Part shown: positions 7,790-41,345 of the stretch, piece after piece
Position numbering within the stretch: position 1 is the first letter of the stretch
How the letters are laid out: the number at the start of each line of letters is the position of its first letter
Assembly (NCBI GenBank): GCA_029582155.1
Contig: CM055898.1
Coordinates: 36,083,455-36,147,454 of the forward strand
Reading direction: 5' to 3'
DNA length: 64,000 bases
DNA from: Panopea generosa
Taxonomy: Eukaryota > Mollusca > Bivalvia > Adapedonta > Hiatellidae
Program-made: the position numbers and the translations under genes
Notes under the pieces: model-generated
What the model was told of the DNA's origin: nothing
What the model saw: the letters and a program-made list of their open reading frames with translations, nothing else
Databases searched by the model: none

Positions 7790-7790
<1 letters not shown>

Positions 7791-8260
7791 CTAGGTCTCA
7801 CTTAAGAATTACCTCCTTACAAGACGGCAGCAAACTCCTTACACCCAAGAAATATGAGCTGTGTAAATTGGATGGGCTTTAGTTTTGTTGAAGATACATA
7901 AACTTTTAATATATCTTGTACATATTAAAACATTGGAACATTTGCATGATTTCTGCAAAGCGCGTATGATATTGGATGCTGTTTGAAACTATAACAGTTT
8001 AAACATGTTCAACAAATGGTCAGAATTTTCAAAAACGAAGGAGCGTCATAAAACCATCGAAATTGTCAAAAAGCAACCTCACCAATCCCTTAATTTTTTT
8101 TACATAATTGGACCAACAGAGGACTATATATAGAAACAAGGCATTTTTAGAACCATTGGTAAGGTGTAAAGTGTTACAGAAGTGCATTTCTCTATATGTC
8201 GCGCAAAATTGACTGTTGAGCGAGGTGTTAAGAACACAATGTCATTGCAAATGGTATTTA
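7790..8260. repeat. segmental duplication block P, unit A
   Basis: Homologous to 31395-31825 in unit D. Shared landmarks include GAGCTGTGTAAAT(T/C)GG(A/T)TGGGC, GTCAT(A/C)AAACCATCGAAATTGT and TTTAGAACCA(T/G)TG, with many indels between. No conserved reading frame is visible. The minus-strand frame at 8124-8339 lies partly in this block and has no counterpart in the other copy. Confidence 0.75.
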
Positions 8261-8344
8261 AAGAGCTGTATGCACAATCAAAAGACTTAACATGAATACA
8301 CACAGGAAAAATCATTAAATTCTTGTTGGTCTTGTACATCCGAG

Positions 8345-8965
8345 CATGTTTTGTTGTTTAAAGTAGGCCTATTCTTTTATTTATTGTATTGATTACTAAA
8401 ACCCGTATCAAAAGTATATGAAGAATTTGTGAATTCTATTTTACTATTTAAAACGTACGTCATTATGTGTATGCATATTATCATTTATCGATGAAACAAA
8501 ACGGATAAAATGTGTCCTGGTGTTTTGACTACATTTTCTGCAGCATAACAAGTGTCCGAGGTACATAGAAAAATATTTCTTTTAGTTTGCATAAAAAAAT
8601 TGGTAAGGACCCTTTTGTTAGCGGATGAATCCTAATCCTTATGACAGGTATTACGGCGTGGAAGTGAAACTGTAGTATTACAATTTTCTGATTGATCACC
8701 AGTAGCCGTTATCATTGACACTGCCATTCGATACATTGGTTTCCATTCTGCAATAGTGTCATCAGAGTGGCTTCTTCCTATAGGTAATCATATCCATATA
8801 CTATTATAAAGCTTCAACTTGATTGCAAATGCATTTACTTTGGTTCCTCTTTGCCCTAGCGTACTAAACTTAATTCCTCAAAACAACATTTGGCAATAGC
8901 ATCTGAAAATACAGTGTAAGGTTCGTCAGCGGAAGACAAATAATACTAAAATTTAACCAGATTGT
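8345..8965. other. unannotated stretch
   Basis: No gene or repeat recognised. Confidence 0.5.
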
Positions 8966-9296
8966 ATTATATTATGTCATGTCGTGTTGTGTCGTGTTAA
9001 ATCATATTATATCATATCATATCAAATCACATCACATCACATCACATCACATCATATTATATTATGTTTAAAGGTCGATTTGATATCTATATATACCTTT
9101 TAATATAATAATATATCATATCATATCATATCATATCATATCATATCATATCACATCATATTACATCACACCACATCCCATCACAAAGACGATTTGATAT
9201 ATATATATATACATTTTAATATCAAAGCATATCACATCACATCACATCATATCATATTTAAAGGACGATTTGATAAGTAAATATACCTTTTTAACT
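8966..9296. repeat. composite pentanucleotide array with repeated spacer
   Basis: Runs of (ATCAT)n and (ATCAC)n alternate three times with a spacer of about 40 bp of the form (T)AAAGG(T/A)CGATTTGATA ... ATATACCTTTTAA, at about 9067, 9184 and 9258. The higher-order unit is thus microsatellite plus spacer. Confidence 0.9.
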
Positions 9297-9489
9297 ATTA
9301 TTACATTATATCTGTTTATACATAAATTGTATATTGTCTAGTTATTTGTCTATACTTTTTTATATGCAGACAATCTATATGTATACCGTGAGTTAAAACT
9401 GACACGTTGCCATTGACTACGTGATATTGACATTTTACTTGATACTTGCAGTTGGTTTTGAAAAGTTTGCTTTAAAAGACTTAACGCTT

Positions 9490-9810
9490 AGTAAGCACTT
9501 GTGACTTAATTTGGAGAGGGAAATTGCCTTGCACGGCGTTTGCATAAAATTTCCATAAGAAAGATATATATATAAAGGAATAAAAGAGGCAATTCTCCAA
9601 ATCATTCAGTAGTAAACCTCAATTTATTCAACGCCTTGTATACTTGGATAATATTAGTAAAATATTTTGACTTTTAGTGTTTTTTTTCATCAATATATAT
9701 TGTTAAAAATAAATGTACCAACTATTATAGATAACCGCGTATTCTACACATTGTTAACAGGAGAACAGTTCTAGAAAATGGTGTACAATCATTGTTTTTA
9801 TTTCATCATT
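9490..9810. repeat. segmental duplication block Q, unit A
   Basis: Matches 23585-23915, before unit C. Shared phrases include GA(G/A)GG(G/A)A(A/T)ATTGCCTT, AGGCAATTC, TTGGATAA, GATAA(C/T)CG(C/A)GTATTCTACA(C/A)ATTGTTAACAG and AGAAAATG. The match is at DNA level with indels and shows no shared frame. Confidence 0.75.
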
Positions 9811-9899
9811 TAAGTTTAAACTATTTTATCTCAGAGCTTATATGAACCGCTCTCGATTCCACTTCCTGTGTAGAACCAGTAATGAGTGTTATTTTTGAG

Positions 9900-9985
9900 A
9901 AGCATGGGGTTGATCTAGAGATCGAACCCGCATTCTCTGGTGTGAGTGGCCAACACTCTATCCACTGCAGTAATGCCCCCGCTTT
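9900..9985 (-). mobile_element. tRNA-like SINE head fragment
   Basis: The minus strand reads GGGGGCATTACTGCAGTGG ... GCGGGTTCGATCTC, with an A-box-like and a good B-box-like element about 40 bases apart. It resembles the head at 7610-7705. There is no complete cloverleaf and no recognised tail. Confidence 0.6.
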
Positions 9986-10094
9986 CACATTTTAATTTTA
10001 TGTAAAGTAAGGAATGTGCGTCCAACAGGAGATGTTTAATGTACATGCCATCGCATCATATCTAGTTCGAATGAAGAAAATATTGCAGTTGAAT

Positions 10095-10811
10095 AATCGG
10101 GTTGAAAATTTAACAGGGTGAAACATTTCTCCAATGACAGATGGATCAAGATTGAATAATATTCAATAAACAGTCGGAAACTAGAATTGTGTCAATACAT
10201 AACAACAGTCCAGTAATATTGGCGCTCTTCTATCGTACTTCGAACATTATTTACATCTATCAGCACCAAGATAACCCACTTGCTTCCACTTTCAGGCATG
10301 TAATATGAAATCATCAAACATTTCGCCTAATATCTAGTTATATGTAATAATACAATTCAACATTGCGTGCTTATCCACAGTAACTGCCAATAGTACTGTG
10401 ATTTAGAATAACCAGAAGTGTTCCGAATGTTTCAAAATTGTCCGATTTAGAAACGTGAAACAGATTTTGTGGCAACAGAGTATGCGTATATGGTTTGATT
10501 GAACAAACGCTAAATCAGATTTAAGAACCAGAACAATAAACTGTACTTGTATTACGTATGCTAACAACAAATATGGAAATGGCGAGAAAGTTCTTTGGTA
10601 AAAGAGATCTGTCAAAAGTGAAAATAACGCGTTTATGTTATTATATAATGTCATGGAAGTTTATGTTGCAAACATTGCATATATTATATGAACATGTTAA
10701 AGTGGTTTTGAAGATACATATATAAATATATATATCAATTTTTTTATATAAGATGTGTGTTTCATCAAATATAGATATATCATTTAATTTGTGATATTCA
10801 TTTTACCCAGT
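10095..10811. repeat. segmental duplication block 1, unit A
   Basis: Homologous to 16970-17700 (B) and 24320-24560 (C). The best-conserved part is TCTATCGTACTTCGAACATT through ATCTAGTTATATGTAATAAT. Over a 55-base sample from TCGTACTT to TTGCTTCC I count three differences between A and C, and about five between A and B. The A-B match runs on to 10811, where A reads CAGTTTAACCC and B reads AAGTTTAAAGT. The minus-strand frame at 10403-10654 lies here and is broken in B. Confidence 0.85.
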
Positions 10812-11040
10812 TTAACCCTTTACTTCATATAGACGCATTTGGACACGTCTAATATAAAAGCTTTTGGACACCTTTTGGATTATCGGCTATTTTGATTGAC
10901 AGCCCGCGCTATGTCGGCTTGTTTGATTGACAGCCCGCGCTGTGTCAACTTGTTTGATTGACAGCCCGTGCTATGTCGGCTTGTTTGATTGACAGCCCGC
11001 GCTATATCGGCTTGTTTGATTGACAGCCCGCGCTAGGTCA
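10812..11040. repeat. 31-bp minisatellite x5, preceded by a TTAA-CCCTTTAC element end
   Basis: From about 10882 the unit GTTTGATTGACAGCCCGCGC plus TATGTCGGCTT (31 bp) repeats five times with few changes. It is markedly more GC-rich than its surroundings. It is preceded at 10812 by TTAACCCTTTACTTCATA, like the left end of the TTAA-flanked element at 19686. Unit B has an uninterrupted TTTAA at the matching place (about 17698-17702). The array probably sits inside an inserted DNA element whose right end I cannot define. Confidence 0.8.
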
Positions 11041-11420
11041 TTTGTGGTTATACTAGTATGGTGGGTGTCCGCTGTGTGACGGATCCCCTGTTGAGATTAT
11101 ATGTTTGGTTATAATTAGAAAGCAATGTTTGTTTTCTATTTATAAAATAAAACATTACAAACTAACAAACAAGTCCACAACCGATTTTGTTAAATAAATA
11201 GTTGACATGGAAGAATATAATTCACGATACAACAACAATGTTAGAAAATAAAGTACTCCCATAATTCGGTTTTAAACCTTTTAGAAAGTCTCAATACAAA
11301 TTAATCGAGCTAGCCTGTCACATCAAATGCATTTCTCAACGATAACACTGTGTTAGGAGATCATTAATACCGAGCTCAAACTGGAATTTTACCATCTTTT
11401 AAAGTTCATTACCGTTTGTC
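11041..11420. repeat. segmental duplication block 2, unit A
   Basis: Matches 18700-19120 (B) and 27300-27640 (C). Landmarks are GGTGGGTGTCCGCTG at the start, ACAATGTTAGAAAATAAAG(T/C)A, ATAATTCG, AGAAAGTCT(C/A)AATACAAATT and CCTGTCACAT. The opening bases resemble one monomer of the 53-bp satellite found here in unit C. A further weak match continues at 11710-11940 (B 19360-19570, C 28300-28510). Confidence 0.8.
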
Positions 11421-11602
11421 TGACTACTTCATTTTTTATATGTTCTAGATAGTTAATAATTAAAGAATGTATTTCCCATTTATATACAAAACATTGTGTA
11501 CCAAATAATTGTCCATTCGCATACAATACACACAAACGCAAATATGCACGTATACCAACATTCAATCGCACACGAAAGAAAGCACACTAGAATATTCAAA
11601 CA

Positions 11603-11687
11603 TTTTTTTTTTGGTGTGTGATATAACATCGTTATACGATGTTTGAAACATCGTATAACATGTTATATCACACACAAAAAAAAAGCA
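11603..11687. repeat. near-perfect 85-bp palindrome
   Basis: Two arms of about 42 bases are centred on G11645: (T)nGGTGTGTGATATAACAT ... ACGATGTTT, then G, then AAACATCGT ... ATGTTATATCACACAC(A)n. Only a few arm positions differ. The DNA could extrude as a cruciform or its transcript fold as a hairpin. The T-run/A-run ends suggest a foldback element or an inverted tandem duplication. I did not find it at the matching place in B or C. Confidence 0.95.
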
Positions 11688-12700
11688 AAAACAATATAAA
11701 TATATTGTAGACTCAATTAAATGCAACCATTACCATTGAACTATTCATTCATTCTCTTATTTTAGGGTTTCTCTTATAAATGTGCGATTGTCTAAGAGAT
11801 TTTGGTTACTTAACTAAGGCATTATCTAATGCATATACATTGCAGCATACAAACTTATTAATTAAGGTGTTTTAAAGAGTATTTAATAAGAAATCTAAAA
11901 CACTATTTGATTTTTGTAACCTTTAGTTTCCATAGGACTCTTTATTTCCTGTGACACTCGCCTGTCTAAAAAATGTCCAATAAATCAAAGTATTGTAAGT
12001 ACTGAAGATGGGATTACTATAAGACGCTATGTGTTGTTGTTGTTGTTGTATGGTGTAAAACGTCGTCGCTTTCAACATATTTTTAGTTATATCACCATGA
12101 TGTCTACTTGAAACAGTTTTCTGAACGCTGTCACACTGAAGTACCATGCCACAAACACTTGGTATGATATACCACCCAGTCACATTATACTGACAATTAC
12201 TTCGAATATCGAATTAGTGAAGGATACAATTAAAGTAGTTTGTGTTGTAGAATATATGTGCACATAGACTGATACTGTATAAATTATTTTCATATATAAT
12301 ACACACATTGTGTTTCAATAACGTATACATAGTTATAATACTGGTTTCTTTACATCGGCAATAAAGGGAGGTAATGTTCGAATGGTTCTTCTTCGGAATA
12401 TTGAATTAGCTTTCAAGTAAGGAACAGCGTTTATTATAATATAGCTGGAAAACAATTTAGATTTTGATTTAGAAAAAAATACCACCATGCAAATTACATT
12501 CTCCTGTAACTGTCAAAATATAAGAAAAATATGGAGGGGTTAAATATTCATGAGCTCACATAGCCAGTAATGTTGGAAAACAGGCTAAATTGGAAAGCGC
12601 ATGTTAAGCATGTTTGCATGTATAAAATAGTGTATACAGGTAAAGGTGAACAAATTTACAAATTTAGCAACTTATTTTTGTTTAAGGGAATGTTTTTATT

Positions 12701-13190
12701 ATCATGTGCTATATAGTGATGTATAATCCAACATCATGTGCTATATATATATAGATGTATAACCCAACATCATGTGCTATATATTGATGTATAATCCAAC
12801 ATCATGTGCTATATAGTGATGTATAATCCAACATCATGTGCTATATAGTGATGTATAATCCAACATCATGTGCTATATATATAGATGTATAATCCAACAT
12901 CATGTGCTATATATATAGATGTATAATCCAACATCATGTGCTATATATTGATGTATAATCCAACATCATGTGCTATATAGTGATGTATAATCCAACATCA
13001 TGTGCTATATAGTGATGTATAATCCAACATCATGTGCTATATATATAGATGTATAATCCAACATCATGTGCTATATATTGATGTATAATCCAACATCATG
13101 TGCTATATATAGATGTATAATCCAACATCATGTGATATATAGTGATGTATAATCAAACATCATGTGCTATATATTGATATATAATCCAAC
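12701..13190. repeat. 32-bp satellite array, 15 copies
   Basis: The unit is ATCATGTGCTATATAGTGAT plus GTATAATCCAAC. There are three common variants at the centre: ATAGTGAT, ATTGAT and ATATATAGAT, the last giving 34-bp units or longer. Variants occur in an order suggesting block copying (for example units 3-6 and 8-11). No spacers and no coding sense. Confidence 0.97.
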
Positions 13191-13374
13191 AGAAGATTTA
13201 ATAAATGTTCATGTTCTTATCATTTCTTATTGATTGGTAGTAATAAATGACAGGACTATAGGTGTTAGGATAACAATTTATTTAAGATTTTAGATGTTGT
13301 AGTGGTGACGGTGGTTGCGACGCTATAACATCGTCACCTTAAAGTTAATGTTCCACTGGTAACTTAGTTTCTTC

Positions 13375-13643
13375 TTGATTAAAAGGCAAAAAATGTATCC
13401 GTATATGGAGTAACAAGATTTTGTGTAACCGGTCCGATTAGCCAAGTCGGTAACGAGTCTGACTATCAATCCAGGAGTCGTTAGTTCGAATCCCCATCCG
13501 GCCACATTCTCTGTGATGATTTCGACTCATTTTGAATCATTTGATTCAAGTGTGATATTTATCAGTAAAGATGAGTGTGAACTGTCAACATTTCAGATTT
13601 ACAGGAAAGAGTGGTTATGTAAACTCTGGCCACCGATGACATA
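13375..13643 (+). mobile_element. tRNA-derived SINE with 14-bp TSD
   Basis: Perfect 14-bp direct repeats AACTTAGTTTCTTC at 13361-13374 and 13644-13657 delimit the element. Its tRNA-like head starts near 13430, with an A box TTAGCCAAGTCGG (13438-13450) and a B box TAGTTCGAATCCC (about 13482-13494). It ends in a shortened body and tail. About 54 bases between the left duplication and the head are unusual, since insertions of this family normally begin at the head. The minus-strand frame 13323-13505 overlaps it and is not a gene. Confidence 0.85.
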
Positions 13644-13659
13644 AACTTAGTTTCTTCAA

Positions 13660-14754
13660 TCTTGCTCTCATTGCAAATTACTTGGTTTATCCAGATACAC
13701 ATTAGGTCAATGCTTTATTCCTTTACACTCGCAATTTAAATGACTTAAACGTTTTCAATATTAATGTTTTATCCTCTTTTTACAATAGATAATAAATACT
13801 TTGTGTCATAAAAGCAGTTTGCAATTCATGGAAATGCCGCAAATTCTTTGGTACGATCCAATGAAACATTTTGTGGAAAATGTATCGTTTAAATTTAAGA
13901 TAAAACTATTTCCGATGTCAGACAGTTTATCTTTTAATGTTCTTATCAATCTACAATGTACTGTTTTAAATTATTTTCGAAAGTCATCCATAAATTGTAT
14001 CTGTCCCGTCATCATGGGAACGATGTTAAATTAATGGCTATCAGGCGATACGAGGACCAATATGCATTCTTGCTGGACCGCAAAACTTTGTAGTATCAGA
14101 AATATCGCACAGCAGAGCGTAAAAAGAAAGCAATGTGTTTGTGTATTTGAGCAGTATATTATAGTAATTAAGTGCTGTCGTTAGTTGTAATTTAGCCCAT
14201 TAAATTCCGATTTTTTATGGACATTATACATTATTTATATCCTTTTTGAATAATGTAACAAAATAATGGAAATGATCCTTCTCTTACACTAATATATATA
14301 CATGCCACAGAGTAAAAGGTAAACAGTATTTTATCGTCTGCTACTGTTCAGTTTGTAGACCCTATACTACTAGTATAGCCCCGCTTTCCGATAAGCTACA
14401 GTGCCGGGTCTTTCATTCAATCAAATTCCAGGGCCAATCATATAAGAACACGATTTAAGGTTTCGACGGCGTAGTAACATTTCAGAAAATATATAACAAT
14501 CAACACATGCTATCTACACATTTGAAGCAAACAAATGAATATTAATTTATTCGGGTACCTAAAATAAGTTGTTTGTTTTTCTTTATATATTGAACACTAT
14601 GCACGTTTTGGAATTTTCTTTGCACTATATTTTTGGTGTGCGGGTATAAAAGTTCAACTCTTTTTATCTTATCGAGCTCCAAAACTCTGCATGTCAACAC
14701 CGATAAGTGACTAACGCAACCAACAAAAATAAAATTTAATCAGTGTTATCTTAT
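13660..14754. other. unit-A-specific stretch, unannotated
   Basis: No homologue in B or C at this place, and no gene. The 77-codon frame 13801-14034 has no recognisable domain. Confidence 0.5.
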
Positions 14755-15200
14755 CGACGTATATTCTATCTCAGATTTTGCTCTATTCATCTGAAAGAGA
14801 CAATGACATATTTATGGTCGTTTTAAAATATACACATGAATCGTTAAGCGTAGGAATCGCCCGTGTGCAACTAATGTGTTTTGTGGCGTAAATATATTGC
14901 AGACATCGTATCTGTGTGAAACACCATAAACCAATTAAAATACTCATGCGAATAACTTGTGCGTCAAACGAAGGAAACGATGATACACCCACAGTCTGAG
15001 ACACTTCCGCAGACGACAATTGTCTAAAATATCTCAGCACTTTACGTCTTATGTTGAAACGCAGCATAGATAAGAACTTTTTTTTTGTTTATCCATTAAC
15101 GTTCCGGGAGCAACAGTTTGATTTCTGTTAATTACAGTCCAATACACATGAGCAGCTGGCCGGGAAGAGATGCTGAGCATTCGGAGTTTAAACCTTTAAC
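14755..15200. repeat. segmental duplication block 3, unit A
   Basis: Matches 21505-21981 (B), 28500-28985 (C) and, in part, 35755-35950 (D). Landmarks are GAGACAATGACATAT, CAGACATCGTATCT(G/A)TGT, ACAGTCTG(A/G)GACA(C/T)TTCCGCAGACGACAA, ATCCATTAACGTTCCGGG and CCGGGAAGAGATGCTGAGCAT. The minus-strand frame 14783-15067 crosses this block and is not kept open in the other copies, so I do not call it coding. Confidence 0.85.
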
Positions 15201-15287
15201 AACTGTCAATCAAGTTCATTTAGATTCGTCCCACAACTCCTGTATTGAACCAATATACAATCTGGTTTGTATATGAATACCGCCACT

Positions 15288-15559
15288 GAGTGAACCCGGA
15301 AAGTCGGAAGCATCTGATTATCAATGCAGGGGTCGTAAGTTTGAATACCCGCTCGGCCAAAGTTTCCGTGGTATGACATTACTCTTCGTTTCTCACCACT
15401 GATTCAAAAGTGTGAAAGTTATCAGTTACTTGCGAAGGTGGGTGTGCTTGAGTACTGTTTAACTTTCCATGATCTAAGGTAAGAGAGGTTAGGTTAACCC
15501 ATAGTCTGTTAGCCCTCGATGGCATAAAAATAATGCTAAATATACAAATAAGCAAATAA
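15288..15559 (+). mobile_element. SINE shared by units A, B and C (copy in A)
   Basis: The tRNA-like head (GTGAACCCGGAAAGTCGG ... GGGGTCGTAAGTTTGAAT) is followed by the family body and the tail GTTAGCCCTCGATGGCATAA. It lies between the same flanks in all three units: AACCTTTAACAACTGTCAATC before, and GCAAATAAAATACCGCAAGT after. The insertion therefore predates the segmental duplication. The head is decayed but both pol III boxes can still be traced. Confidence 0.85.
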
Positions 15560-15569
15560 AATACCGCAA

Positions 15570-16500
15570 GTAATCAGTAAAGAGTAAACAGCATTGAAAG
15601 CCTGTCGAACAAAATGACGAACGTTATAAAACACAAAGTTCAAAAGAAGATTAAAAAGCGACTCTCCTCATCGCTATTCCCAATTATACAGTAATTTTTG
15701 TACAACATACGATCAATGTTGATGGAGGTAAGAATGATATAAAACACGTTTCACCACACTAGTTAGTTGAGCTAAAAGACGGGCTTCCGGTACTGTTCGG
15801 AAATGAATGGGAAATTGTCTTTTGTTATGCAATAAACAAGAGGTTAGGGCAACATTAATTCGAATTACTCCTCACTTATTTGTCAATTATACTAATTGCG
15901 ACGGACAATGTCGTGGGCCTAATAGAAATACGATTTGTTATGTAGAACTACTTTGGCTATTTGAAGTGGAATCCAATAATTCTAGTTTGGTATGATGCTG
16001 AACAGATGTTTTATACAAGTGTTATAGAAACGCCAAACAGTATTATGCAAACAAAGTTTGTTTCATAATACTAGACAACAAACTCTTAAACATGCAAAAG
16101 AACGGCAATCCATGAACTATGAAAATAACGCTTGTTAGACATACTTATCGATGTCATTATTTGTTACTTTACATATTTGCTGTTTACGAGCAGTGTTTAG
16201 ACGCTAGACAATGTGTGATTCTGGGTAAAAATATCGCCAATGCAGATATCTGTACAGGAGTTTGTCGTGTAAATTTTATCATAATTTAGTGATGTTAAAT
16301 GCTTTACTTAAAACGCCAACCTCTGTGTGACAGCTTGGTGCTACGGCAGGAATAAGGTATGTTTGGTTTGTATATATGTATCGGAACGGGTATCAAATTG
16401 AGTAATCGGTGTATAGTATGTTCAGTCTCTGAACGTTTTTATGAATCAAATCATTTTTTTTCGTATTCATTTGTTAGTGTGTTTAGGTCAATTTGCTGAG
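15570..16500. repeat. segmental duplication blocks 4 and 5, unit A
   Basis: Block 4 (to about 16100) matches B 22800-23190, C 29457-29990 and D 40945-41345. Block 5 (about 16100-16500) matches C 30000-30420 and is absent from B. Around 15950-16050 the A and C copies are nearly identical (GAAGTGGAATCCAATAATTC, AAGTGTTATAGAAACGCCAA). The core AACATTAATTCGAATTACTC ... ACTAATTGCGA(C/T)GGACAATG is kept in all four units. The 62-codon frame 15807-15995 overlaps the core but is not maintained elsewhere. Confidence 0.85.
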
Positions 16501-16619
16501 GTCGTAGAAAGATTGCGTTGCGTAAACCAGATTTATGTGTTCTCCCCAACTCGCACTTCCCGCTGTCATCACTTCAATATTTGTAGTTTTTTATTCCATA
16601 TATAAAATCAGATATCTCC

Positions 16620-16830
16620 TAAACCAGGTCTATTAACCCCAATGAAAAATGCAGGGAATTCCATATTTGTCCCACATTTTATAGCAAATGTATGCTTACT
16701 AAACTATTACGTCAATGAAACTTTCTCTGAAGCCACAGACCAAACAACGTGCCCTAATATTCTGTTATTTAACGGACCCAATAAGGAAAGACGGGTTCGT
16801 TCTACAATCTATGGTTTCACAAGTCTATGA
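16620..16830 (+). repeat. dispersed repeat R2, copy 1
   Basis: Related to 52765-52970 and 56185-56400. Shared phrases are CAGG(T/-)CTATTAAC, AATGCAGGGAATTC, TGTCCCACA, ATAGCAA(T), GACCAA(T/A)CAACGTGC and TATTTAACGGACC(C/T)AAT. The 62-codon frame here is not open in the other copies. Family unknown. Confidence 0.7.
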
Positions 16831-16859
16831 AAAAATGTCATCACCTATATAAAACAATA

Positions 16860-17700
16860 TAACACACATTGAAGAACAAAAGTTATTTATATTCCTAGTT
16901 AAAAACAAGTAAATGTTACAATTTAACAATTGGTGGCGGGGGCGGTGATAATTGGACTAAAATACTTACAGGAATAAATTGTCCAGTGTCTGATGGACCA
17001 AGACAAAATATAATTCACTAAAAAATCGAAAAACTAGAATCGTTTAATATTATTATTTTATAACACTGGTCCAATAAAATCGGCGCTTCTTCTATCGTAC
17101 TTCGAACATTATTTACACCTATCAACATTAAGATAACGCACTTGCTTCCATTTTTAGACATGTTCAATGAAATCATCAAACATTTCGCCTAATATCTAGT
17201 TATATGCAATAATAAAATTCAACATTGCGTGCATATCCACAGTAACTGTCAATAATACTGTGATTTAGAATACCCTGAAGTGTTCCGAATGTTTCAAAAT
17301 AGTCCGATTTATAAACGTGATGCAGATTTTATGGCAATAGAGGAGGCGTATATGGTTTGATTGAACAAACTTTAAAATCAGATTATAGAGCCGCGAGAAT
17401 ATTACGTATGCTAACAACAAATATGAAAACTCATATAATCTGCAATATGCGGAACTGACGGGAAAGAAAATTATTTGGGAATCGTTGGGAAAAGATCAAA
17501 CTGCACATGGTGAATATAATGCGTGTACATTCTATGTTAATATAATGAAAGTGAAATGTTCATGTTGCAAACACATTGAATATAGAATATTAACATGTTG
17601 AAGCGAGTTTAATGTATAAATATAGCAAATGACTAATAAAAGACGTGCACTTCATCAGACGTAGATCTATTAGAATAGTTTAGTTACGCCTTTTACCAAG
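16860..17700. repeat. segmental duplication block 1, unit B
   Basis: Begins with GAACAAAAGTTATTTATATTCC, matched near 24205 in C, and from 16970 matches A 10095-10811. The end TTTTACCAAGTTTAAAGTATT corresponds to A's TTTTACCCAGTTTAACCC, showing the empty state of the TTAA site filled in A. Confidence 0.85.
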
Positions 17701-17754
17701 TTTAAAGTATTCCCTATCGCACTAAAATGAACAGTTTCTATAATATATAATCTT

Positions 17755-18225
17755 TAACGGCTCCTCTAATATATAAAGGCACCATTATATACAGATAACA
17801 CATATAGCCGTCCTTTAAACACATCACGACTTTAGTATATAAAGGCACCATTATATACAGATAACACATATAGCCGTCCTCTAAACATATCACGACTTTA
17901 GTATATAAAGGCACCATTATATACAGATAACACATATAGCCGTCCTCTAAACATATCACGACTTTAGTATATAAAGGCACCATTATATACAGATAACACA
18001 TAGCCGTCCTCTAAACATATCACGACTTTAGTATATAAAGGCACCATTATATACAGATAACACATATAGCCGTCCTCTAAACATATCACGACTTTAGTAT
18101 ATAAAGGCACCATTATATACAGATAACACATAGCCGTCCTCTAAACATATCACGACTTTAGTATATAAAGGCACCAGTATATACAGATTACACATATAAC
18201 CGTCCTCTAAACATATCACGACTTT
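17755..18225. repeat. 66-bp minisatellite, about 7 copies
   Basis: The unit runs GCCGTCCTCTAAACATATCA, CGACTTTAGTATATAAAGGC, ACCATTATATACAGATAACA, CATATA. Most units are 66 bp (22 codons) and some are 64 bp, having lost one TA. The 66-bp units keep minus-strand frames open (17738-18001 and 18094-18309, with a repeating MCYLYIMVPLYTKVV peptide). The 64-bp units break the frame, so I do not treat these as genes. Confidence 0.95.
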
Positions 18226-18555
18226 CGAAAATAGATTTGATAACTTAAAAGTGTTTCCTATACATACAAGGTTATTCCAGCTGACGCATAATGTTCCTCC
18301 TGAAAACATCTATCTTAAAATTTCCTACATTACATAGTTGTTTTCCTTGTTATTTTATTCTGTAAATATACTCATCAAAACTTCAAATATCTTATTAATT
18401 ACGTTAAACATATTCTATTAGTCTAAGATTTAGCTTTTGGGATACTATTTGAAGTATCTAAGGTAAAGTTAATTTAGATCTTGTATGGCGATAGCCATTG
18501 ATGACTTGGTAATACTTTGTTTAACGATTCCTTTCTAAGAGTTATTTGGTGGTAG

Positions 18556-18557
<2 letters not shown>

Positions 18558-18612
<55 letters not shown>
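18558..18612. repeat. (GA)n microsatellite
   Basis: About 27 uninterrupted GA dinucleotides. Confidence 0.98.
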
Positions 18613-18615
<3 letters not shown>

Positions 18616-18699
18616 AGGCACAACACTATTTCACAGGTTTAAGCTCCCAGGTGGCGATTTTTCTATCGACTATTCAAAGGCGGTGATCATTGTCGGTCG

Positions 18700-21981: not shown

Positions 21982-21985
21982 TTAA

Positions 21986-22797: not shown

Positions 22798-22799
22798 AA

Positions 22800-30420: not shown

Positions 30421-30439
30421 AGGGAGTTCGTACATTGGT

Positions 30440-30675: not shown

Positions 30676-30679
30676 AAAT

Positions 30680-30920
30680 GAAATAATGTTGAAAACAATC
30701 ACAAAACCTCATACAAACAAACAAACCAGTCATATGAGTTAAAGATAATAAGATATGTTATTTTTTCTGCTTCTATTAGCGTTCTGTTTTAAAAGTTGTG
30801 TTGAACACGACGAATATCGGAGTTTTATAATAAAATTTATATAATTCGAGCCGCCTAAGTACTAGCGTGCATGAATGTGCATAATTGAGAGATCTGTTCA
30901 GAAATAAATGAAGTTAAAGA
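30680..30920. repeat. segmental duplication block X, unit C
   Basis: Counterpart of 23270-23560 in B, with several indels and stops in the frame that is open in B. Confidence 0.65.
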
Positions 30921-31394
30921 GAAGACATTTCTATGTGTAATGATTTTAATGGCACGCGGCTTCATTATCATATGAGAATTCAAATACATATATTTGTATT
31001 TATGTAATGACAATATGTACACATAACGGTATAAAACCGTTATACAATCGCCATGTACCACTTTTGAACATGTTTGTGTAAATTGCCAGATAGGAAAAAA
31101 ACGAAAAACGTCTCTGTCTGTTGAAATTGGGCTATTAAACAGAAGTTGGTATTTTGCGATGCTCATTAACGCACGGGTTTAATTCCCAGAAGTGAAATAT
31201 TACATTATTTTGCATTAATTTTCTTGACGTTTTCAGGAAAGCGCATATTAACGACATGAAAAATGAAATTATTTAAATAAATACGATGTTGCTATCAAGT
31301 TAATCTTTTGTTTTTCTTCTGTAAAAAATATATTTGAAAAAGAGGCAAATGTGTTTGTGTTCTATCAGCCATTTTTAAGTTTTATTTCAAATAT

Positions 31395-31825
31395 GTCATA
31401 TATGTCTCAATTACCACTTACTTTCGCTTAGTGACGGTAGCAAGATTATTTCGCCAAAAAAGTAGAGCTGTGTAAATCGGTTGGGCATTATTTTGGTTGA
31501 ACATGCTTATTTCTGTGTACATGTGAGAAAACTGGAATATTTTCATGAGTTCAGCCAAATCTCGATGGCATTGGATATTGTTTGATGAATATTATAACAG
31601 ACTAAAGACTGCATCAAATAGATGGACTTTTATCAATAATAAATCAATAATAAATGGGGTGTCATCAAACCATCGAAATTGTGAAAAAAAACAATCTGAT
31701 CAACTCCATGTTTGGACAGAGGACAAAAACTAGAAAAAAAACACCTTTAGAACCAGTGTTCAATATTCCAGAAGTGTATGTCTCTTTATGTGGAACAGTA
31801 CACAATTAAATGGTGTGTGAGACGT
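31395..31825. repeat. segmental duplication block P, unit D
   Basis: Counterpart of 7790-8260 in A (GAGCTGTGTAAATCGGTTGG, GTCATCAAACCATCGAAATT, TTTAGAACCAGTG). It marks the start of the fourth unit. Confidence 0.75.
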
Positions 31826-31899
31826 AAACACACACTCAAACACACACACGCACGCCTTGATTAGAATACCGTTATACCTTTATACCATTGTTATACAAA

Positions 31900-32250
31900 A
31901 AACTGTCCGATCTTTAGGTCTTCATACTCAGATGCGCCACTTTTTGTCACTGTAGCAAGTTTCTTGCACTTAAAAAGTCTTATAAAATTTGGTTTGAACT
32001 ATTTTCAAAATGGTTCATAGGGGCTGTGATTTCTTGCTGCAGGTGAGTAAATCAAAAACTGGATCATCACGATAATGTATACTGCAATAAGACATCACTG
32101 TTGCTAAATAAATACATGTACATGTACTTATGAGGATTTTAAAAAGAATATCAGGATGTCACTGAACTGTACTTAAAAAACCAAGATGGGCAAACTTAAT
32201 TTTTATACAGAACGAAGAACAAAATTCAATTGTGTAGTGAGACCTTTAGC
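31900..32250. repeat. duplicated block Z, copy 1
   Basis: Matches 60060-60490: GGTTTGAACTATTTTCAAA, TGGTTCATAGGG, TGATTTCTTGCTGCAG, and AACAAAATTCAA(T/C)TGTGTA(G/T)TGAGACC near the end. It directly precedes the D satellite. Confidence 0.75.
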
Positions 32251-32256
32251 GCATAT

Positions 32257-35200
32257 TATTTTACCTACCTTGTCAATATTTTGTATACCTACTTCAAAGA
32301 AGAAATTTGCTGAACACCATATATATATAACATATTATATTTAACCTACTTTATCAATGTTTTGTATGCCTACTTTGAAGAAGAAATTTGCTGAACATGT
32401 AACCACCATATATATAACATATGATAATATTTTTCCCTACTTTATCAATGTTTTGTATGCCTACTTTGAAGAAGAAATTTACTGATCATGTAACCACCAT
32501 ATATATAAAATATAATAATATTTTACCTACTTTATCAATGTTTTGTATGCCTACTTTAAAGAATACATTTCTGAACATGTAACCACCATATATATAACAT
32601 ATTAATTTTACCTACTTTATCAATGTTTTCTATGCCTTCTTCAAAGAAGAAATTTGCTGAACATGTAACCACCATATATATAACATATAATAATATTTTG
32701 CCTACTTTATCAATGTTTTGTATGCCTACTTTAAAGAATACATTTCTGAACATGTAACCACCATATATATAACATATTATATTTTACCTACTTTATCAAT
32801 GTTTTCTATGCCTACTTTGAAGAATACATTTGCTGAACATGTAACCACCATATATATAACATATTATATTTTACCTACTTTATCAATGTTTTGTATGCCT
32901 ACTTTAAAGAATACATTTGCTGAACATTTAACCACCATATATATAACATATAATAATATTTTGCCTACTTTATCAATGTTTTGTATGCCTACTTTAAAGA
33001 ATACATTTCTGAACATGTAACCACCATATATATAACATATTATATTTTACCTACTTTATCAATGTTTTCTATGCCTACTTTGAAGAATACATTTGCTGAA
33101 CATGTAACCACCATATATATAACATATTATATTTTACCTACTTTATCAATGTTTTGTATGCCTACTTCAAAGAAGAAATTTGCTGAAGATGTAACCACCA
33201 TATTTATAACATATTATATTTTACCTACTTTATCAATGTTTTCTATGCCTACTTTGAAAAAAAATTTGCTGAACATGTAACCACCATATATATAACATAT
33301 CATATTTTACCTTCTTTATCAATGTTTTGTATGCTTACTTTAAAGAATACATTTGCTGAACATGTAACCACCATATTTATAACATATAATAATATTTTAC
33401 CTACTTCATCAATGTTTTGTATGCTTACTTTGAATAAAAAACTTGCTGAACATGTAACCACCATATATATAACATATTATATTTTACCTACTTTATCAAT
33501 GTTTTGTATGCTTACTTCAAAGAAGAAATTTGCTGAATATGTAACCACCATATATATATAACATATAACATACAATCTTTTATTCACATAATTAATGTTT
33601 TCTATGCTTACTTTAAAGAAGAAATGTGCTGAAAATGTAGCCATCATATGTATAACAAATAACATACAACATTTTACCTATTTACTGAATATGTAAACGC
33701 CATCTATATAACATATAACATACAACTTTTTCTCACTTTATCAATGTTTTGTATGACAACTTTAAAAGAAGAAATTTGCTGAAAATGTAGCCACCATATA
33801 TAAACATATAACATACAACATTTTACTCACTTTATCAATGTTTTGTATGACTTCTTTAAAGAAGAAATATGTTGGATATATAGTCGCCATATATATATAA
33901 CACATAACAATAAACTCACTTTATCAATGTTTTGTATGACTACTTTAAAGAAGAAACTTGCTGAATATGTAGCCACCATATATATACCTACGTTAAAGAA
34001 GAAATTGCTGAATATATAGCCACCATATATATAAAACATATTACATACAAAAATAAACTCACTTTATCAATGTTTTATATGACTACTTTAAAGAAGAAAT
34101 TGGCTGAATACGTAGCCACCATATATATAACATATAACATACAAAATTTTACTCACTTTATCAATGTTTTATATGACTACTTTAAAGAAGAAATTGGCTG
34201 AATATGTAACCACCATATATATAACATACAAAATTTTACTGACTTTATCAATGTTTTGTATGACAACCTTAAAGAAGAAATTGGCTGAATATGTAGCCAC
34301 CATATATATAACATATAACATACAACATTTTACTCACTCTATCAATGTTTTGTATGACAACTTTAAAGAAGAAATTGGCTAAATATGTAGCCAATATATA
34401 TAACATATAACATACAAAATTTTAATCATTTTATCATTGTTTTGTATGACTACTTTAAAGAAGAAATTTGCTGAATACGTAGCCACGGTATATATAACAT
34501 ATAGCATATAACATTTTACCACGTTATCAATGTTTTATATGTCTACTTTAAAGAAGACATTTGCTGAATACGTAGCCACTGTATATATATAACATATAGT
34601 ATATAACATTTTCCCACGTTATCGATGTTTTATATGTCTACTTTAAAGAAGACATTTGCTGAAAATCTAGCCACTATATATATAACATATAGCATACAAC
34701 ATTTTACTCACTTTATCAATGTTTTGTATGGTTACTTTAAAGAGATTTTTGCTAAATATGTAGCCACCATATATATAGCATATAACATACAACATTTTAC
34801 TCACTTTATCAATGTTTTGTATGCCGACTTTAACGAATAAATTTGCTGAATATGTAGCATCCATCAATATAACATATAACATATAACATACAACATTTTA
34901 CTCACTTTATCAATGTTTTGTATGACTACTTTAAAGGAAGAAATTGCTGAATATGTAGCCACCATATATATATAACATATAACATACAAAATTCTACTCA
35001 CTTTATCAATGTTTTGTATGACAACTTTAAAGAAGAAATTGCTGAATATGTAGCCACCATATATATAACATATAACAATAAACATTTTATTAACTTTATC
35101 AATGTTTTGTATGAAAACATTAAAGAAGAAATTGCTGAATATGTAGCCACCATATATATAACATATAACATACAGCATTTTACTCACTTTATCAATGTTT

Positions 35201-35729
35201 TGTATGACTACTTTAAAGAAGAAATTGCTGAATATGTAGCCACCATATATATAACATATAACATGCAACATTTTACTCACTTTATCAATGTTTTGTTTGA
35301 CTACTTTAATGGAAAAAATTGGCTGAATATGTAGCCACTATATATATATATATATATAACATATAACATATAACATTTTACTCACTTTATCAATGTTTTG
35401 TATGACTACTTTAAAGAAAATATTGGTTGAATATGTAGCCACCATATGTATAACATATAACATACAACATTTTACTCACTTTATCAATGTTTTGTATGAC
35501 TACTCTACAGAAAATATTGGCTGAATATGTAGCCACCATATGTATAACATATAATATACAACATTTTACTCACTTTATCAATGTTTTATATGTCTACTTT
35601 AAAGAAAATATTGGCTGAATATGTAGCCATCATATGTATAACATATAACATGCATAATTTTACTCACTTTATCAATGTTTTGTATGCCTTCTTTAAAGAA
35701 GAAATTTGGTGAACATGTAGCCACCGTAA
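32257..35729. repeat. 87-92 bp satellite array, about 38 copies, two subfamilies
   Basis: The core is TTTATCAATGTTTTGTATG, then (C/A)CTACTTTAAAGAA, TTTGCTGAA(C/T)ATGTA(A/G)CCACCATATATATAACATAT. The first part (to about 33550) has CCTACTTT ... GAACATGTAACC units of 87-90 bp. The second has ACTCACTTT ... GAATATGTAGCC units of about 92 bp with an extra AACATACAACA. A stretch from about 32718 repeats nearly unchanged from 32981, a 263-bp three-unit higher-order repeat. Several open frames on both strands (for example 32718-33020 +, 34864-35280 -, 35014-35334 +) are by-products. Confidence 0.97.
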
Positions 35730-35754
35730 ACCCCATTAGAGCTTCATGCGACTA

Positions 35755-35950
35755 ACAACTGTGTTATTTGTGTTAGAATTATTCCGTCAAATATCGGAAT
35801 TGCACTGCCAGTCTGGATCTTTTCCGCAGACGAAATAATATTTTTAAATGTCTTGTCTCCATTAATATTGCGGAGGAGTCTGCAGTTGAATTGCTTTATA
35901 TACAGTGATTATCCCTAATCAGCAGATACCCGTGATTGGAGTGGGAAGGG
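35755..35950. repeat. segmental duplication block 3, unit D (partial)
   Basis: Aligns with A 14945-15180: CATGCGACTAACAACTGTGT, CAGTCTGGATCTTTTCCGCAGACGA (broken by small changes), TCCATTAATATTGCGG, AATCAGCAGATACCCG. More diverged than the A-B-C copies. Confidence 0.65.
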
Positions 35951-36427
35951 CCGCTGTTTTAACGAGACGACAATAGTTACAGCAGTCAGAAAATGCTGTA
36001 TGAATATATAGTGAAGTATTACTTTATCAATTACTTGAGCATGGACTGTCGTATACCTGTATACTTATATTATATTGTACTGATACAAGAAGTACACACT
36101 GCTGTTTTGTAAGAAAGATAGAAAACAAATCCATTTGAAGTCTATTTATAATAATAAAAAAAATGTTGTCAAATCAAATTGTCCAGGCAACAGTGTCAAA
36201 AGAAATGAACGACTTCACTAATATAACGTAATGAATAGTAAATCCATGGAACACAGATTTATCTTAAGTTGATTCAGTGTTCGATATACCGGTTTTTACA
36301 CCAGCTGCTTGCGTTAAATTTGCCAAATTACAAAAAAAAATTTATCTTTTTAAACATCATAATTGATAGAAAAAAAAGTGTATCGATTGATTACAAATAA
36401 TTCATGACTGGAAGTCATTAATAATAA

Positions 36428-38490
36428 CAAATCAAATTGAATAAAATTTTATTGGCAATTTCGGCAAACATTTGCCTATGGCCATTTTTAGATAAATATG
36501 GCCAATACACAATACACAACAAAATCATAAATATCATTCACATATAAGTTATGTACTTAGCTATACACATATTAAGTATAAGAAACAGTTATATTATGTA
36601 GGGATCGTAAAGTAGCTTCATTATTAAATATCATTTACTTGTTCTAGTGCTAGTTTTCTTATCTTAAAAGCTAGATACATATTTTCTTATTTTCAAAATG
36701 TTTTTTCTTGTTTTCATTTAACATAATACTTGAACATTTCTGACTGTAGGCCAAGATGAACTATTTAAATATAAAAGTCTGATGTTATGGTATCTTGGGC
36801 AACATAGTAAGAAATGATATTCAGTTTCAACAACTTTCATGGAATACAAATTACATACTATCTATATTATCAAATATTCCAAACTAAATTTCTAAATCGT
36901 GGGAGCTTAATCTAAGGCACGTTTACTGTTTTCTTATTGCATTATTTTTTATAACATCTAAATAATCTTTAAAAATAAACTGTTTCTTGAATTTCCTAAA
37001 TTATTCAAATTCAGGCAATTCTTCAATGCCAATATTCCAACTCTGGATATACTGATCACGTATTCTTTGTCTAAACATGGGAAGTTTACGTCAGTATTAA
37101 AGTTTAACCATAGTTCACCAAATCCTAGTTTATCCAAATATTCCTTCACATAACTCACCCAACATTTACCAGTGACAGATTCACATTGATCAATAAAAAT
37201 CTATATATTATAGAATTTGGGCTTTTCAAAATCTTAGTCAAGAATTTTAATGCTTTCTCTTTAGCTATAATTGACAGTGGATATCTTCCTAGTTCCCCTT
37301 ATACAGCTAGAGTTAAGGTTTGCTGACGAACACCTAAAATACGTTTGCAGAATTTAATATGAATTTTAGCCACTTCCTTGAAATCATAGATACCCCAGAC
37401 TTCCACCCCATATAAGATAAAAGATACCACCATCGAGTCAAAAAGGGATAATATGGTTTTAATGTCGAGTCTATCACAAACAGATAGTAAGTTGTTATAA
37501 GCATTCAATGCTTGTTCAGATAACGCGTTCACGGCGTGTGTCATGTTACCCGTGTGAGTGAATTGTATACCTAAATAACAAAACGTGTCAACAACTCCAA
37601 TAGGTTCCCTGTTAACAAAAAAACCAAAGTTATTAATTTCTTTTCTTTTCTCGAAGATACATATTTTTGTTTTATTAACATTTATTTCAGAACCCATTTA
37701 CGCGAATAGTTTGATATTTCAATTAAGCTGACCTTTTGAGTCAGTAGTGAATAGTGCTATGTCATCGGCAAATAAAATCATGTATATAGACAGTTGATTT
37801 AGATCATTCTCAGACAAACCTTGAAAATCAATACTGAATATCAATATAAATAAAAGAGGCGAAAGTGGCTCCCCTTGCTTTAAACCAAGCGTAACATCGA
37901 AGAACTCCGATAAATTACTGTTAGACGGAATTTTTACACAAGATTTAACATTGTCATAAATACATTTTATGATTTTAACCATTTTACAACTTAATCCTGA
38001 TTGTATAAGTTTAACCTATCCCTAATAACGGTGTCAAAAGCTATTACGTAGTCAATGAATGCACAATATAGTTTGGATTTATTAGCTAATATCTTTTGAA
38101 TAATTGAATGAATAATAAATATACTATCAGCTGTACTTCGTTTATCCCTGAAGCCAAATTGTGAAGCGTTTAATACATTTTCAGATTTGCACCAGCGATA
38201 TATTCTATTCCGTAAAACCAATGAAAATACTTTCGTGATTATATTTACAAGAGTAATTTCTCGAAAATTATTAGGGTCTCCTTTTTATGAATAGGAACTA
38301 TAACTCCCCTACACCACGCATCAGGGTATATACCAGTCAAAATATGATTAAAAATATGCTTTAAATATCGACTAATAAAAACTTTGAATCAATAAAAAGT
38401 CAGCAACATTATTTTCAAAGTCACAACTTGTATGTCTTTGTAGACTGGAAATGGTTTTTGAAATAAATAACATAACGTGCAAATGTATCT
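36428..38490 (-). mobile_element. 5'-truncated LINE, minus strand, RT domain present
   Basis: Reading leftward, the translation gives GVIVPIHKK and FREITLVNIITKVFSLVLRN (near 38200-38330), QFGFRDKRSTADSIF and CAFIDYVIAFDTV (37991-38221), GLKQGEPLSPLLF and ILFADDIALF (37719-37982), NVNKTKICIF and LYGVEVWGI (37299-37697), then GELGRYPLS, SYVKEYLDKLGFGELW and a degraded zinc knuckle (HFLLCC) near 36800. Several frameshifts (near 38010 and 38285) and nonsense codons (between 37697 and 37719, and near 37296) make it dead. The 3' end is near 36428 (on the minus strand GCCAATAAAATTTTATTC). The endonuclease and early RT are missing. It lies inside unit D. Confidence 0.92.
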
Positions 38491-38499
38491 ATGAAATTG

Positions 38500-38810
38500 A
38501 TGGTTAAGCATCGTTAACATCATTGTCTGCTTGTCGTGAGAGATACAATAATAATAGTGCGGGCAATTGGTGGAACTTATTTTGATGAGTTATTTCTTGA
38601 AGCAAGTAACCACAAAGCAATACAAATACATAATCGGCAGATCGCGAGCAATGCGATCCAAAGTAAAAAATACGGGATTCAAATATTTTTTCTTTCACGC
38701 AAAACACATATTTATAATCATATTTTTGTTTACTTTTTGCGTGTACATCATATCCCGTTGTCACGTAACAATGAGAGCGCGGATTCAACATAGTATGGCG
38801 GCCAGGGGCC
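38500..38810. other. unexplained stretch with overlapping open frames
   Basis: Three frames of 84-104 codons overlap here (38504-38818 -, 38536-38793 +, 38567-38821 +). They contradict each other and none has a recognisable domain. I record the region only because open frames on both strands over 300 bp are slightly unusual. Confidence 0.4.
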
Positions 38811-38990
38811 AATTTCACTAAACTTCGTAAGTCTTAAAATTTGCTTACGATCACAATGTGATACACAGGAACGTGTCGCTGGCGAAGTATTTATCTGCAA
38901 CTTTTAAAAAGAATAGATGTCTACAAGACTTCCGAGACTTCGTAAAAAAAATGAAAGCGAAACATTAAATGAATTTCCCGTTTTATGTTC
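38811..38990. repeat. GGGGCC-type repeat, diverged copy
   Basis: Starts GGGGCCAATTTCACTAAACT, then TCGTAAGTCTTAAAATTTGC and later GACTTCCGAGACTTCGTAA. It resembles the repeats starting GGGCCGTATTC at 43474 and 55628, and has the same tendency to end with an inverted copy. Confidence 0.4.
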
Positions 38991-40640
38991 GTAACTTCAA
39001 ATTTTACATTTGTAAAACGGGTCGAAGATGTCGAGATTATGCTTTTGAATATTAAAAAGATATAAAAATAACACTATATTTCTATCTGAATTAGTTAATC
39101 AGACACACTTTTGTTATTATTTCTGATTCCTTCTGAGGGGGAAAAAAATCAATTTTGTTTGAAAAATAGAATACCACTTACGCCTGTGCTGGAGGGCATG
39201 AGGGGACATGAGGGGTGTTGCCTGTTTCATTACCGCTCATGAACAGATTCGATAAGACCAAGTCTGCTTTTTCTTCTTTTTGTTGCGTTTTTTGCTCAAA
39301 AGCTTTTTTTTATCAGATATTATTAGAAAATATTATGTTTTTCAAGTGTTTAATAAAACATTTTTTATTTCAAATAGTTTATAATATTATACATTTGCAG
39401 GCAATTTCGTCAAAAAGATTGGAATACAACCTTATAGAATTCTTTGCCTTATTAATAAAGTCTTGATACCATCTAGTAACGAAAACATTAATTTGTTTCA
39501 TGTAACCGAGACGTCTCAAACTACATAAATGTCTTTCATCACCTGGTCAAAACTCAAAGTTTACTTTCATTGTCAGCACCAATGCAGCAAAGATAAGTCA
39601 GGCCAATGCCATTAATTACTCACTGTCAACTGACGTCAAAGTCTGCGAGTTTCTTGATGCTTTAATGTTCCCCTCTGGCTTCTTCGTCTATTTCTAAACA
39701 CTTAAGACAATCCCATAAGACGTTTTATGGCAATTCGTTTCTCCTGATATAATTAAACAACAAACAACTGTACTTGCGTTCATCTGCAGCCAAAATAGTT
39801 AGTATCCTGTATACGATAACTCATTGCTAAATTAAAGTGAAAGAATAACCACTCAGACACATAAACAAAATTTATCAAAATGTAATTTGCCTTACAATGT
39901 TGCATGACGTTGATTCATTTCACGTACCTTAAAAACAAATGGCGTTATGTCGTACTTTGTCATGTCAATGTTACTTTTTGTTTGCTCTCTTGACATTCGA
40001 ACCTGGAGAAAAATGACACTGTCATTTTTATATTTGCTTTTAACTTTTGTTATATAGTCCTTCATTTTGTTTTGGCACGTTATTCATTTTTACATTATTA
40101 GATGCTGAAACTTAGAATACATATGTGTATATATAGATATACATATTTGTGAATAACCAGCAATAAATATACAGTCCAGTTTGTGGCGAGCGCGTCCAGC
40201 TACAATGAACATCAATGACAAAAGGCTATAAAAAATCAACCGACCCAATATAATTGGTGTCGGGTATGACTTATATACAATGGTTTTACATGCAACACGT
40301 CTTGACTTTGACGACAATTTACATACATGAACTGATAGCTTGATACGAGTAGGATCTAGTCAAGGATTCATAAATACGCACACGCCATATAAAGGCCAAA
40401 CATAAAAAACGTCATATTACAGTGGAATCTGAATAATTGTGCTATTCTCCTAAAGGGAAGTAACAATTTTATAACAACAGAATATATACATAACAAACAA
40501 GAGGCGTTGTATTCAGAGGACACAAACACTTAAACAGTATAAAAACAATCAATGTTCAGAATTAGTATACTGTGAGTGACATACAGATATAAAGTGTTCA
40601 TATTTGATATTGGTGCACCCTGAGATCAATGTTGGTGTCA
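38991..40640. other. unannotated stretch
   Basis: No gene or classifiable repeat. The 83-codon frame 39215-39466 and the 75-codon minus-strand frame 40090-40317 show no domain. Confidence 0.5.
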
Positions 40641-40654
40641 GTAGGAGCGACATC

Positions 40655-40930
40655 TAATAATTATATCACAGCAGTAAAGTGAATGAGTCAAAAGACGTCT
40701 TATAATTACATCACAGCAGTAAAGTGAGTCAAAAGACATTTAATAATTACATCACAGCAGTAAAGTTAGTCAAAGGACATATAATAATTACATCACAGCA
40801 GTAAAGTTAGTCAAAAGTCATATAATAATTACATCACAGCAGTAAAGTTCGTCAAAAGACATATAAAAATTCCATCCCAGCAGTATAGTGGGTCAAAATA
40901 CATCTACTAATCACATCACAACAGTAAAGT
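40655..40930. repeat. 41-bp tandem repeat, about 6-7 copies
   Basis: The unit is TAATAATTACATCACAGCAG plus TAAAGTTAGTCAAAAGACATA. The outer copies are more diverged. It lies just before block 4 of unit D. Confidence 0.95.
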
Positions 40931-40944
40931 AATTAAAAAAATGT

Positions 40945-41345
40945 GGTTTTCTGTTTTGATTGGAAACGGTTGCTGTTATTATTTGGGAAATTGTGTTTGT
41001 AATGCAATTAACTAAATGTAAGAACAACATTATTTCGAATTACTCCCACATTTATTGTTTATTATACTAATTGCGATGAATAATGTCGTGGGTTTGATAA
41101 TATGCTATGCTCTGTAGATACATATTTGGTTGATTAAAATGCTTCATCCCTTTTTGACTTCTTATTTTTACATTTTTCAATATTGTTTAATATTACTATT
41201 ACTATTTCAAGGACCTTGTGTGAAACAATTATGGTTACAATCGGCATAGTTTATTTCATGATTAGAGTAAGTTCTTAAAAGAGAGTTTCTACTTGTGTCA
41301 CAGAAATGCAAAACAGCTAAATGCAGCAAATAGTTTTATAAAAAG
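40945..41345. repeat. segmental duplication block 4, unit D
   Basis: 40945-41105 matches the block 4 core (AGAACAACATTATTTCGAAT, ATACTAATTGCGATGAATAA, TGTCGTGGG). After about 160 unrelated bases the match to C near 29915-29975 resumes (TTTCTACTTGTGTCACAGAAA, GCAGCAAATAGTTTTATAAAA). Confidence 0.7.

Follow-up and report, generated by a model that had tools for sequence, protein, structure and literature searches.

A diverged tandem segmental duplication without recognisable genes in Panopea generosa, with different minisatellites in one interval of its units

A stretch of 64,000 nucleotides from the bivalve Panopea generosa (assembly GCA_029582155.1, contig CM055898.1, positions 36,083,455 to 36,147,454 of the forward strand; hereafter the window, numbered from its first letter) contains, between 7790 and 41395, a row of blocks that recur in one order and one orientation. 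We find that this is a real tandem segmental duplication, ordinary in kind, composed of three units (A, B and C) followed by the remnants of another (D). The most probable overall explanation is an old tandem duplication whose copies decayed in place, exchanged short tracts and gained minisatellites. A preliminary description had named a four-unit tandem duplication without genes and ascribed it to repeat-driven unequal exchange; the description holds, while the proposed cause is only partly supported. Not contained in it were the minisatellites in the interval between blocks 1 and 2, a single-copy match of one of these arrays in a neighbouring unit and, weakly, in another, and a conserved core in block 1. 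A literature search found no published account of this locus, which does not prove its absence from print.

The window has a G+C content of 33% and an observed/expected CpG ratio of 0.91. Tandem arrays were masked before self-comparison because they dominate the unmasked one, and BLAST of the masked window against itself gave 62 hits at an expectation value (E) of 1e-4 or less, the best being 1e-174, compared with 0 hits in the control against the window's own reversed, uncomplemented copy. Within 7790-41400 lie 24 hits, 23 of which are direct (including three to an additional short interspersed nuclear element (SINE) at 13.4 kb), and the sole inverted hit is a pair of long interspersed nuclear element (LINE) pieces, 20064-21033 versus 37600-36673. 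The remaining 38 hits divide into 22 direct and 16 inverted. A block map built from unit-against-unit BLAST and from profiles of 12 block segments run on the masked window gave the order P-Q-1-2-3-SINE-4-5-X in A, B and C, with each unit lacking at least one block and no pair of units sharing all nine. Alignments reach about 1 kb and cross block borders. The units are direct, colinear and at least 1 kb long, as in a tandem segmental duplication. Offsets between neighbouring units are 6.5-8.5 kb, wider than the 6.7-7.4 kb first proposed, mostly because of the array in C.

Unit A (7790..16518) carries, like the other units on the plus strand, P (7790-8244), Q (9474-9846), block 1 (10093-10869), block 2 (11043-11943), block 3 (14722-15187), the SINE (15340-15560), block 4 (15570-15968) and block 5 (15969-16518), and neither BLAST nor profiles found X in it. 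Unit B (16816..23569), mapped by masked BLAST, profiles and Pfam, opens with the end of Q and continues with block 1 (16948-17755), block 2 (18753-19571), a LINE (19775-21033), block 3 (21485-21975), the SINE (22578-22800), block 4 (22810-23183) and X (23180-23569), and it gave no hits for P, block 5 or the greater part of Q. Unit C (23562..30934), mapped as A was, contains Q (23562-24290), block 1 (24266-24565), block 2 (about 27320-28493), block 3 (28482-28980), the SINE (29092-29296), block 4 (29470-29881), block 5 (29882-30433) and X (30566-30934), and P gave no hits in it. The remnant D (31395..41395; tandem-repeat scan, masked BLAST, profiles and Pfam) consists of P (31395-31836), a 3.5-kb satellite of 87-94 bp (32252-35728) whose variant changes at about 33.7-34.0 kb, a weak piece of block 3 (35732-35835, about 100 bp; 15 bits, E 1e-4), a minus-strand LINE (about 36673-38015), a 41-bp array (40649-40930), block 4 (40937-41139) and a piece of block 5 (41273-41395). 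Because D is this fragmentary, "four-unit" is better read as three units plus remnants. Two weak BLAST matches would place block 2 in D, one of A 11409-11481 to 36923-36994 (E 0.005) and one of B 18968-19231 to 37084-37349 (E 2e-4); they did not reappear with the block 2 profile and were not counted. To the left (1-7.7 kb) and right (41.4-64 kb) of the array, the 12 profiles detected only SINEs and weak isolated pieces and no additional unit. The block positions first proposed agree with the masked self-BLAST for block 1 (10.09, 16.95 and 24.27 kb), block 3 (14.72, 21.49 and 28.48 kb, with the small weak piece at 35.73 kb) and block 4 (15.57, 22.81, 29.47 and 40.94 kb), and insertions particular to single units are borne out as well, namely minisatellites, LINE fragments and a repeat at the A/B join.

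Divergence was computed on concatenated aligned blocks, and since unaligned stretches are excluded the true divergence lies above the figures given: A and B are 74.0% identical over 2736 sites (Kimura two-parameter distance (K2P) 0.322), A and C 77.0% over 2417 sites (K2P 0.277), B and C 74.6% over 2046 sites (K2P 0.313), and pairs with D 71-76% over 160-569 sites (K2P 0.29-0.37). Recent segmental duplications are usually defined by an identity of 90% or more; the 74-77% of the fuller units falls short of this, indicating by sequence divergence an old duplication below the usual catalogue cut-off. At such identity the copies are not assembly duplicates, and we give practically no credence to an assembly artefact, as A, B and C differ by 23-26% in the aligned blocks, far above allelic difference or sequencing error. 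Nor is it at all probable that dispersed transposons clustered here by chance without any segmental duplication, although parts of the unit are indeed dispersed. By profile search the SINE occurs in six copies scoring above 120 bits and in partial ones; besides the copy in each fuller unit it lies at 4.0, 49.1-49.4 and 61.9-62.1 kb and, in partial form, at 13.5 and 61.4 kb. A Pol III B box and dispersed, repeated copies 200-240 bp long are expected of a SINE derived from transfer RNA (tRNA); the 13.5-kb copy has a B-box-like GTTCGAATCCC, identified by eye, and ARAGORN finds no tRNA in the window. Block 3 has at its left end a dispersed repeat that is also present at 45.3, 60.1 and 32.0 kb. Beyond the array, weak relatives were likewise detected for block 4 at 59.2 kb (E 4e-7), for X at 55.5, 4.1 and 7.7 kb (E 1e-7 to 7e-4), for P at 45.4 kb (E 0.001) and for block 3 at 49.5 kb (E 0.007). 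However, chance clustering is refuted by colinearity, with one order and orientation in three units and alignments running across block borders, and outside the units nothing in the window matches the profiles of blocks 1, 2 or 5 at E<0.01.

The lack of a recognisable gene in the unit was confirmed by coding tests and by Pfam and Rfam scans. When 10 block segments were examined on both strands by a column-shuffle test for coding signal, 19 of the 20 P values were 0.125 or more, and the sole low value (block P, plus strand, P=0.005) is about what 20 tests could yield. Gap lengths in six blocks are divisible by three in 16 of 83 cases, below one third. The region holds 68 open reading frames (ORFs) of 65 amino acids or more; of the 13 scanned with Pfam, two passed the curated cut-off, both of them reverse transcriptase pieces (19775-20158, plus; 37719-38015, minus), and the few other matches stayed below their own cut-offs. 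The conserved coding sequence expected of a duplicated gene cluster was not seen in 19 of the 20 tests or in the 13 ORFs, out of 68, that were scanned. One could still argue for a protein-coding gene family with short exons, now diverged or dead, from the block P value and from a B-C tblastx match on the minus strand of block 4 (101 residues, 60% identical, among the matches listed), but the ORF list has no uninterrupted frame of that length at block 4, and together with the coding tests, the gap lengths and the Pfam result this leaves such a family improbable. A constrained noncoding element, either regulatory or an exon of a long noncoding RNA, located in block 1 and perhaps in 2-4 and kept in its copies by selection, is a possibility we take seriously without favouring it. 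Identity along the blocks was compared with a binomial expectation by chi-square in six comparisons, of which five were used, and was uneven in three: A-B block 1 (P 1.9e-5), A-B 15188-15947 (P 8.8e-6) and A-C blocks 4-5 (P 5e-8). The unevenness of A-C Q/1 (P 2e-22) was not counted, since a non-homologous stretch inflates it. In the block 1 core (A 10221..10370, B 17082-17232 and C 24406-24556 in the three-way alignment, no strand assigned), 129 of 150 gap-free columns (86%) are invariant in A, B and C, with one further column gapped, while many 50-bp windows of the flanks drop to about 60-70% identity or lower. The two-against-one columns of the core split 7:6:7, and such equal spacing of the three pairs is explained more simply by constraint than by two conversions of the same age. 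The core is perhaps a constrained noncoding element. By contrast, repeated gene conversion could likewise raise identity, A-B blocks 2 (P 0.057) and 3 (P 0.21) are not significantly uneven, none of 54 alignment windows showed a conserved RNA fold (lowest z -2.76), and no Rfam family reached its gathering score in the window. ARAGORN reported no tRNA in the window, and exact patterns from blocks 1 and 4 had 0 and 0 matches in viral contigs.

All three fuller units have an array in the block 1-2 interval: a 31-bp minisatellite in A (10883..11039, 5.1 copies) that makes up all but about 18 bp of the interval, a 66-bp one in B (17764..18225, 7 copies) starting about 10 bp past block 1, and a 53-bp one in C (24725..27320, 48.7 copies) that continues into the beginning of block 2, each on the plus strand. 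Together with the other arrays, of 32, 87-94 and 41 bp, these are head-to-tail repeats in the range of about 10-100 bp usual for minisatellites. The largest 20 of 48 families in a repeat-family listing all came from the 53-bp array and were not used. Judged by their sequences the three monomers are not clearly related (31 with 66 bp, P 0.62; 66 with 53 bp, P 0.26; 31 with 53 bp, P 0.05). A common origin of the arrays was rejected after comparing 21 pairs of seven monomers, where, besides the trivial pair of 87- and 94-bp monomers in D, only the 66-bp monomer of B with the 94-bp monomer of D (P=0.005) and the 31-bp with the 53-bp monomer (P=0.05) reached 0.05 or less, with P values taken from shuffles that do not keep dinucleotides.

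The 53-bp monomer has a single-copy relative at the start of block 2 in B (18729..18800, plus). The array consensus scored 53 against the short stretch of B (0/2000 background draws) and 32 against that of A (P 0.007), and the last monomer of C with its flank scored 59 against B (0/2000 draws) and 35 against A (P=0.002). In a targeted test of 40 comparisons, only the 53-bp monomer versus the B interval was found at P<=0.03 (score 53, 0/300). These results suggest that the array of C most likely grew from sequence common to the units. Some results speak against this origin. A did not reach P<=0.03 in the targeted test; in a scan of the whole window outside arrays, the best plus-strand match of the 53-bp monomer (B 18731-18779) scored 40 against a shuffled mean of 40.6, below the 42 of a match on the minus strand (19294-19358); and no precursor of the 31-bp or 66-bp monomer was found by that scan and the targeted tests. 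As the whole-window score does not exceed the shuffled one, the case rests on homologous position and on the targeted tests.

Under uniform placement of the three, two and one arrays in A, B and C, the coincidence in this interval has a probability of 0.0066 x 0.166 x 0.036 = 4e-5, which overstates the case, by an order of magnitude at a guess, because the interval was chosen after seeing the data. All six minisatellites of the window fall inside the duplicated region (chance 0.02, with limits of period >=28 and score >=250 chosen afterwards). We tentatively raise the idea, which we think rather unlikely to be right, that a sequence-intrinsic weakness of the block 1-2 interval seeded unrelated minisatellites independently in each copy, as a natural replicate experiment, and that the nearby, strongly conserved core of block 1 may point to an element that is functional or prone to breakage. 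As a separate observation, GC skew is 0.38 over 24001-28000, where the 53-bp array gives a strong excess of G over C on the plus strand; the array (24725-27320) contains 16 loose G2-type motifs and no G3 quadruplex motif.

Six three-way alignments of A, B and C comprise 1278 identical columns, 74 columns with all three different, and two-against-one columns of 225 (AB), 217 (AC) and 202 (BC), which is nearly star-like. Among 18 block-by-pair tests with 2000 shuffles each, a local AC excess was detected at A 10171-10217 (0/2000) and a local BC excess in the SINE at 15371-15404 (0/2000), and the SINE also showed an AB excess of lesser strength (P 0.0125). Over A 15952-16049, 95 of 98 sites are the same in A and C, and D matches these two at 46-47 of 98; in another alignment A and D agree at 61 of 97. 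Because site patterns are mosaic in this way, exchange after duplication is supported, and the data fit a transfer of short tracts between units. A BC excess at A 9961-10029 (0/2000) was not counted as exchange, as A is not clearly homologous there, and its columns remain in the totals.

As for the cause, the mosaic patterns agree with exchange between units after duplication. By contrast, the preliminary proposal that repeats drove the original duplication lacks a repeat common to the unit ends: a TG run precedes A, a dispersed repeat precedes B, X is joined directly to Q at the B/C join, and 461 bp without self-hits precede P of D. Simple SINE-driven duplication is rejected because the array begins with P and the SINE is internal. 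The same-orientation repeat at all unit ends that marks non-allelic homologous recombination (NAHR) was not found, although erosion of the ends could hide it. The dispersed repeat that lies in the gap between A and B (16577-16815) has relatives at 52.7 and 56.1 kb, and it may be a trace of the loss of X, P and Q at this join.

From these comparisons we infer a mechanism and an order of events. An ancestral gene-free segment of about 6-7 kb, with a SINE putatively of tRNA type already in place and an older dispersed repeat forming the left end of block 3, would have been duplicated in tandem to at least four copies. These would then have decayed in place by insertion of unit-specific transposons and by loss of blocks (X from A; P, Q and 5 from B; P from C; and most of D), and short tracts would have been exchanged by gene conversion or unequal crossover. 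Minisatellites would have been gained, with different arrays in the block 1-2 interval of different copies, and in C a stretch of 53 bp, of which B retains a single copy, would have expanded to about 49 copies by replication slippage or break repair and then by unequal exchange. Several points weigh against this history. The mosaic patterns depend on alignment choice; block 4 favours AC along its whole length (55/111), a bias that could reflect branching order rather than conversion; D is too eroded to be placed in time; and breakpoint homology identifying the original duplication event was not found.

Other repeats were observed in the window. An inverted pair of 350 bp (1887-2236 versus 51866-51511) is 92% identical, which suggests a dispersed element younger than the unit duplication. 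A Tc1/mariner-like transposase in two frames lies at 56975-57988, with HTH_23 and DDE_3 above cut-off and PAX just above. Block 2 of A has a palindromic insertion resembling a miniature inverted-repeat transposable element (MITE) at 11571-11718 that is not seen in the alignment rows of B and C, and an inserted stretch in block 2 of C has MITE-like inverted repeat arms at 27968-28018 and 28162-28212. To the left of the array, 6086-6605 is a diverged short tandem duplication (offsets about 156 and 316 bp, about 65% identical).

These findings point to no new system. According to its published account, the sea urchin Sp185/333 cluster is made of same-orientation tandem segmental duplications of 4.2-4.6 kb and others of about 7.1 kb, most of them with immune genes, held by the authors to be recent and bounded by GAT repeats, and our region resembles it in having same-orientation tandem units, a partial unit and tandem repeats beside duplicated segments (PMC5103432). 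It differs from that cluster in having no gene, about 25% divergence, and arrays that lie inside the unit with monomers not clearly related. To our knowledge, catalogues favour recent or gene-bearing duplications, and old gene-free tandem ones fall outside them. Macrosatellites such as human D4Z4 and DXZ4 are likewise tandem units of kilobase scale, but near-identical and in many copies, whereas here there are three diverged copies and remnants. With several diverged copies of a single noncoding segment lined up, comparison of neighbours can reveal minisatellite origin, exchange tracts and possible noncoding constraint. Two features deserve further work: the conserved core of block 1 and the interval that holds a different minisatellite in each fuller unit. 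Minisatellites can be born by local tandem amplification of single-copy sequence, and the 53-bp array of C accords with this in matching single-copy sequence at the equivalent place in B. Unlike the usual case, the unamplified reference comes from paralogous neighbours, and this interval is occupied by different arrays in the remaining fuller units, making the locus useful as a natural experiment on minisatellite birth that shows how arrays can start.

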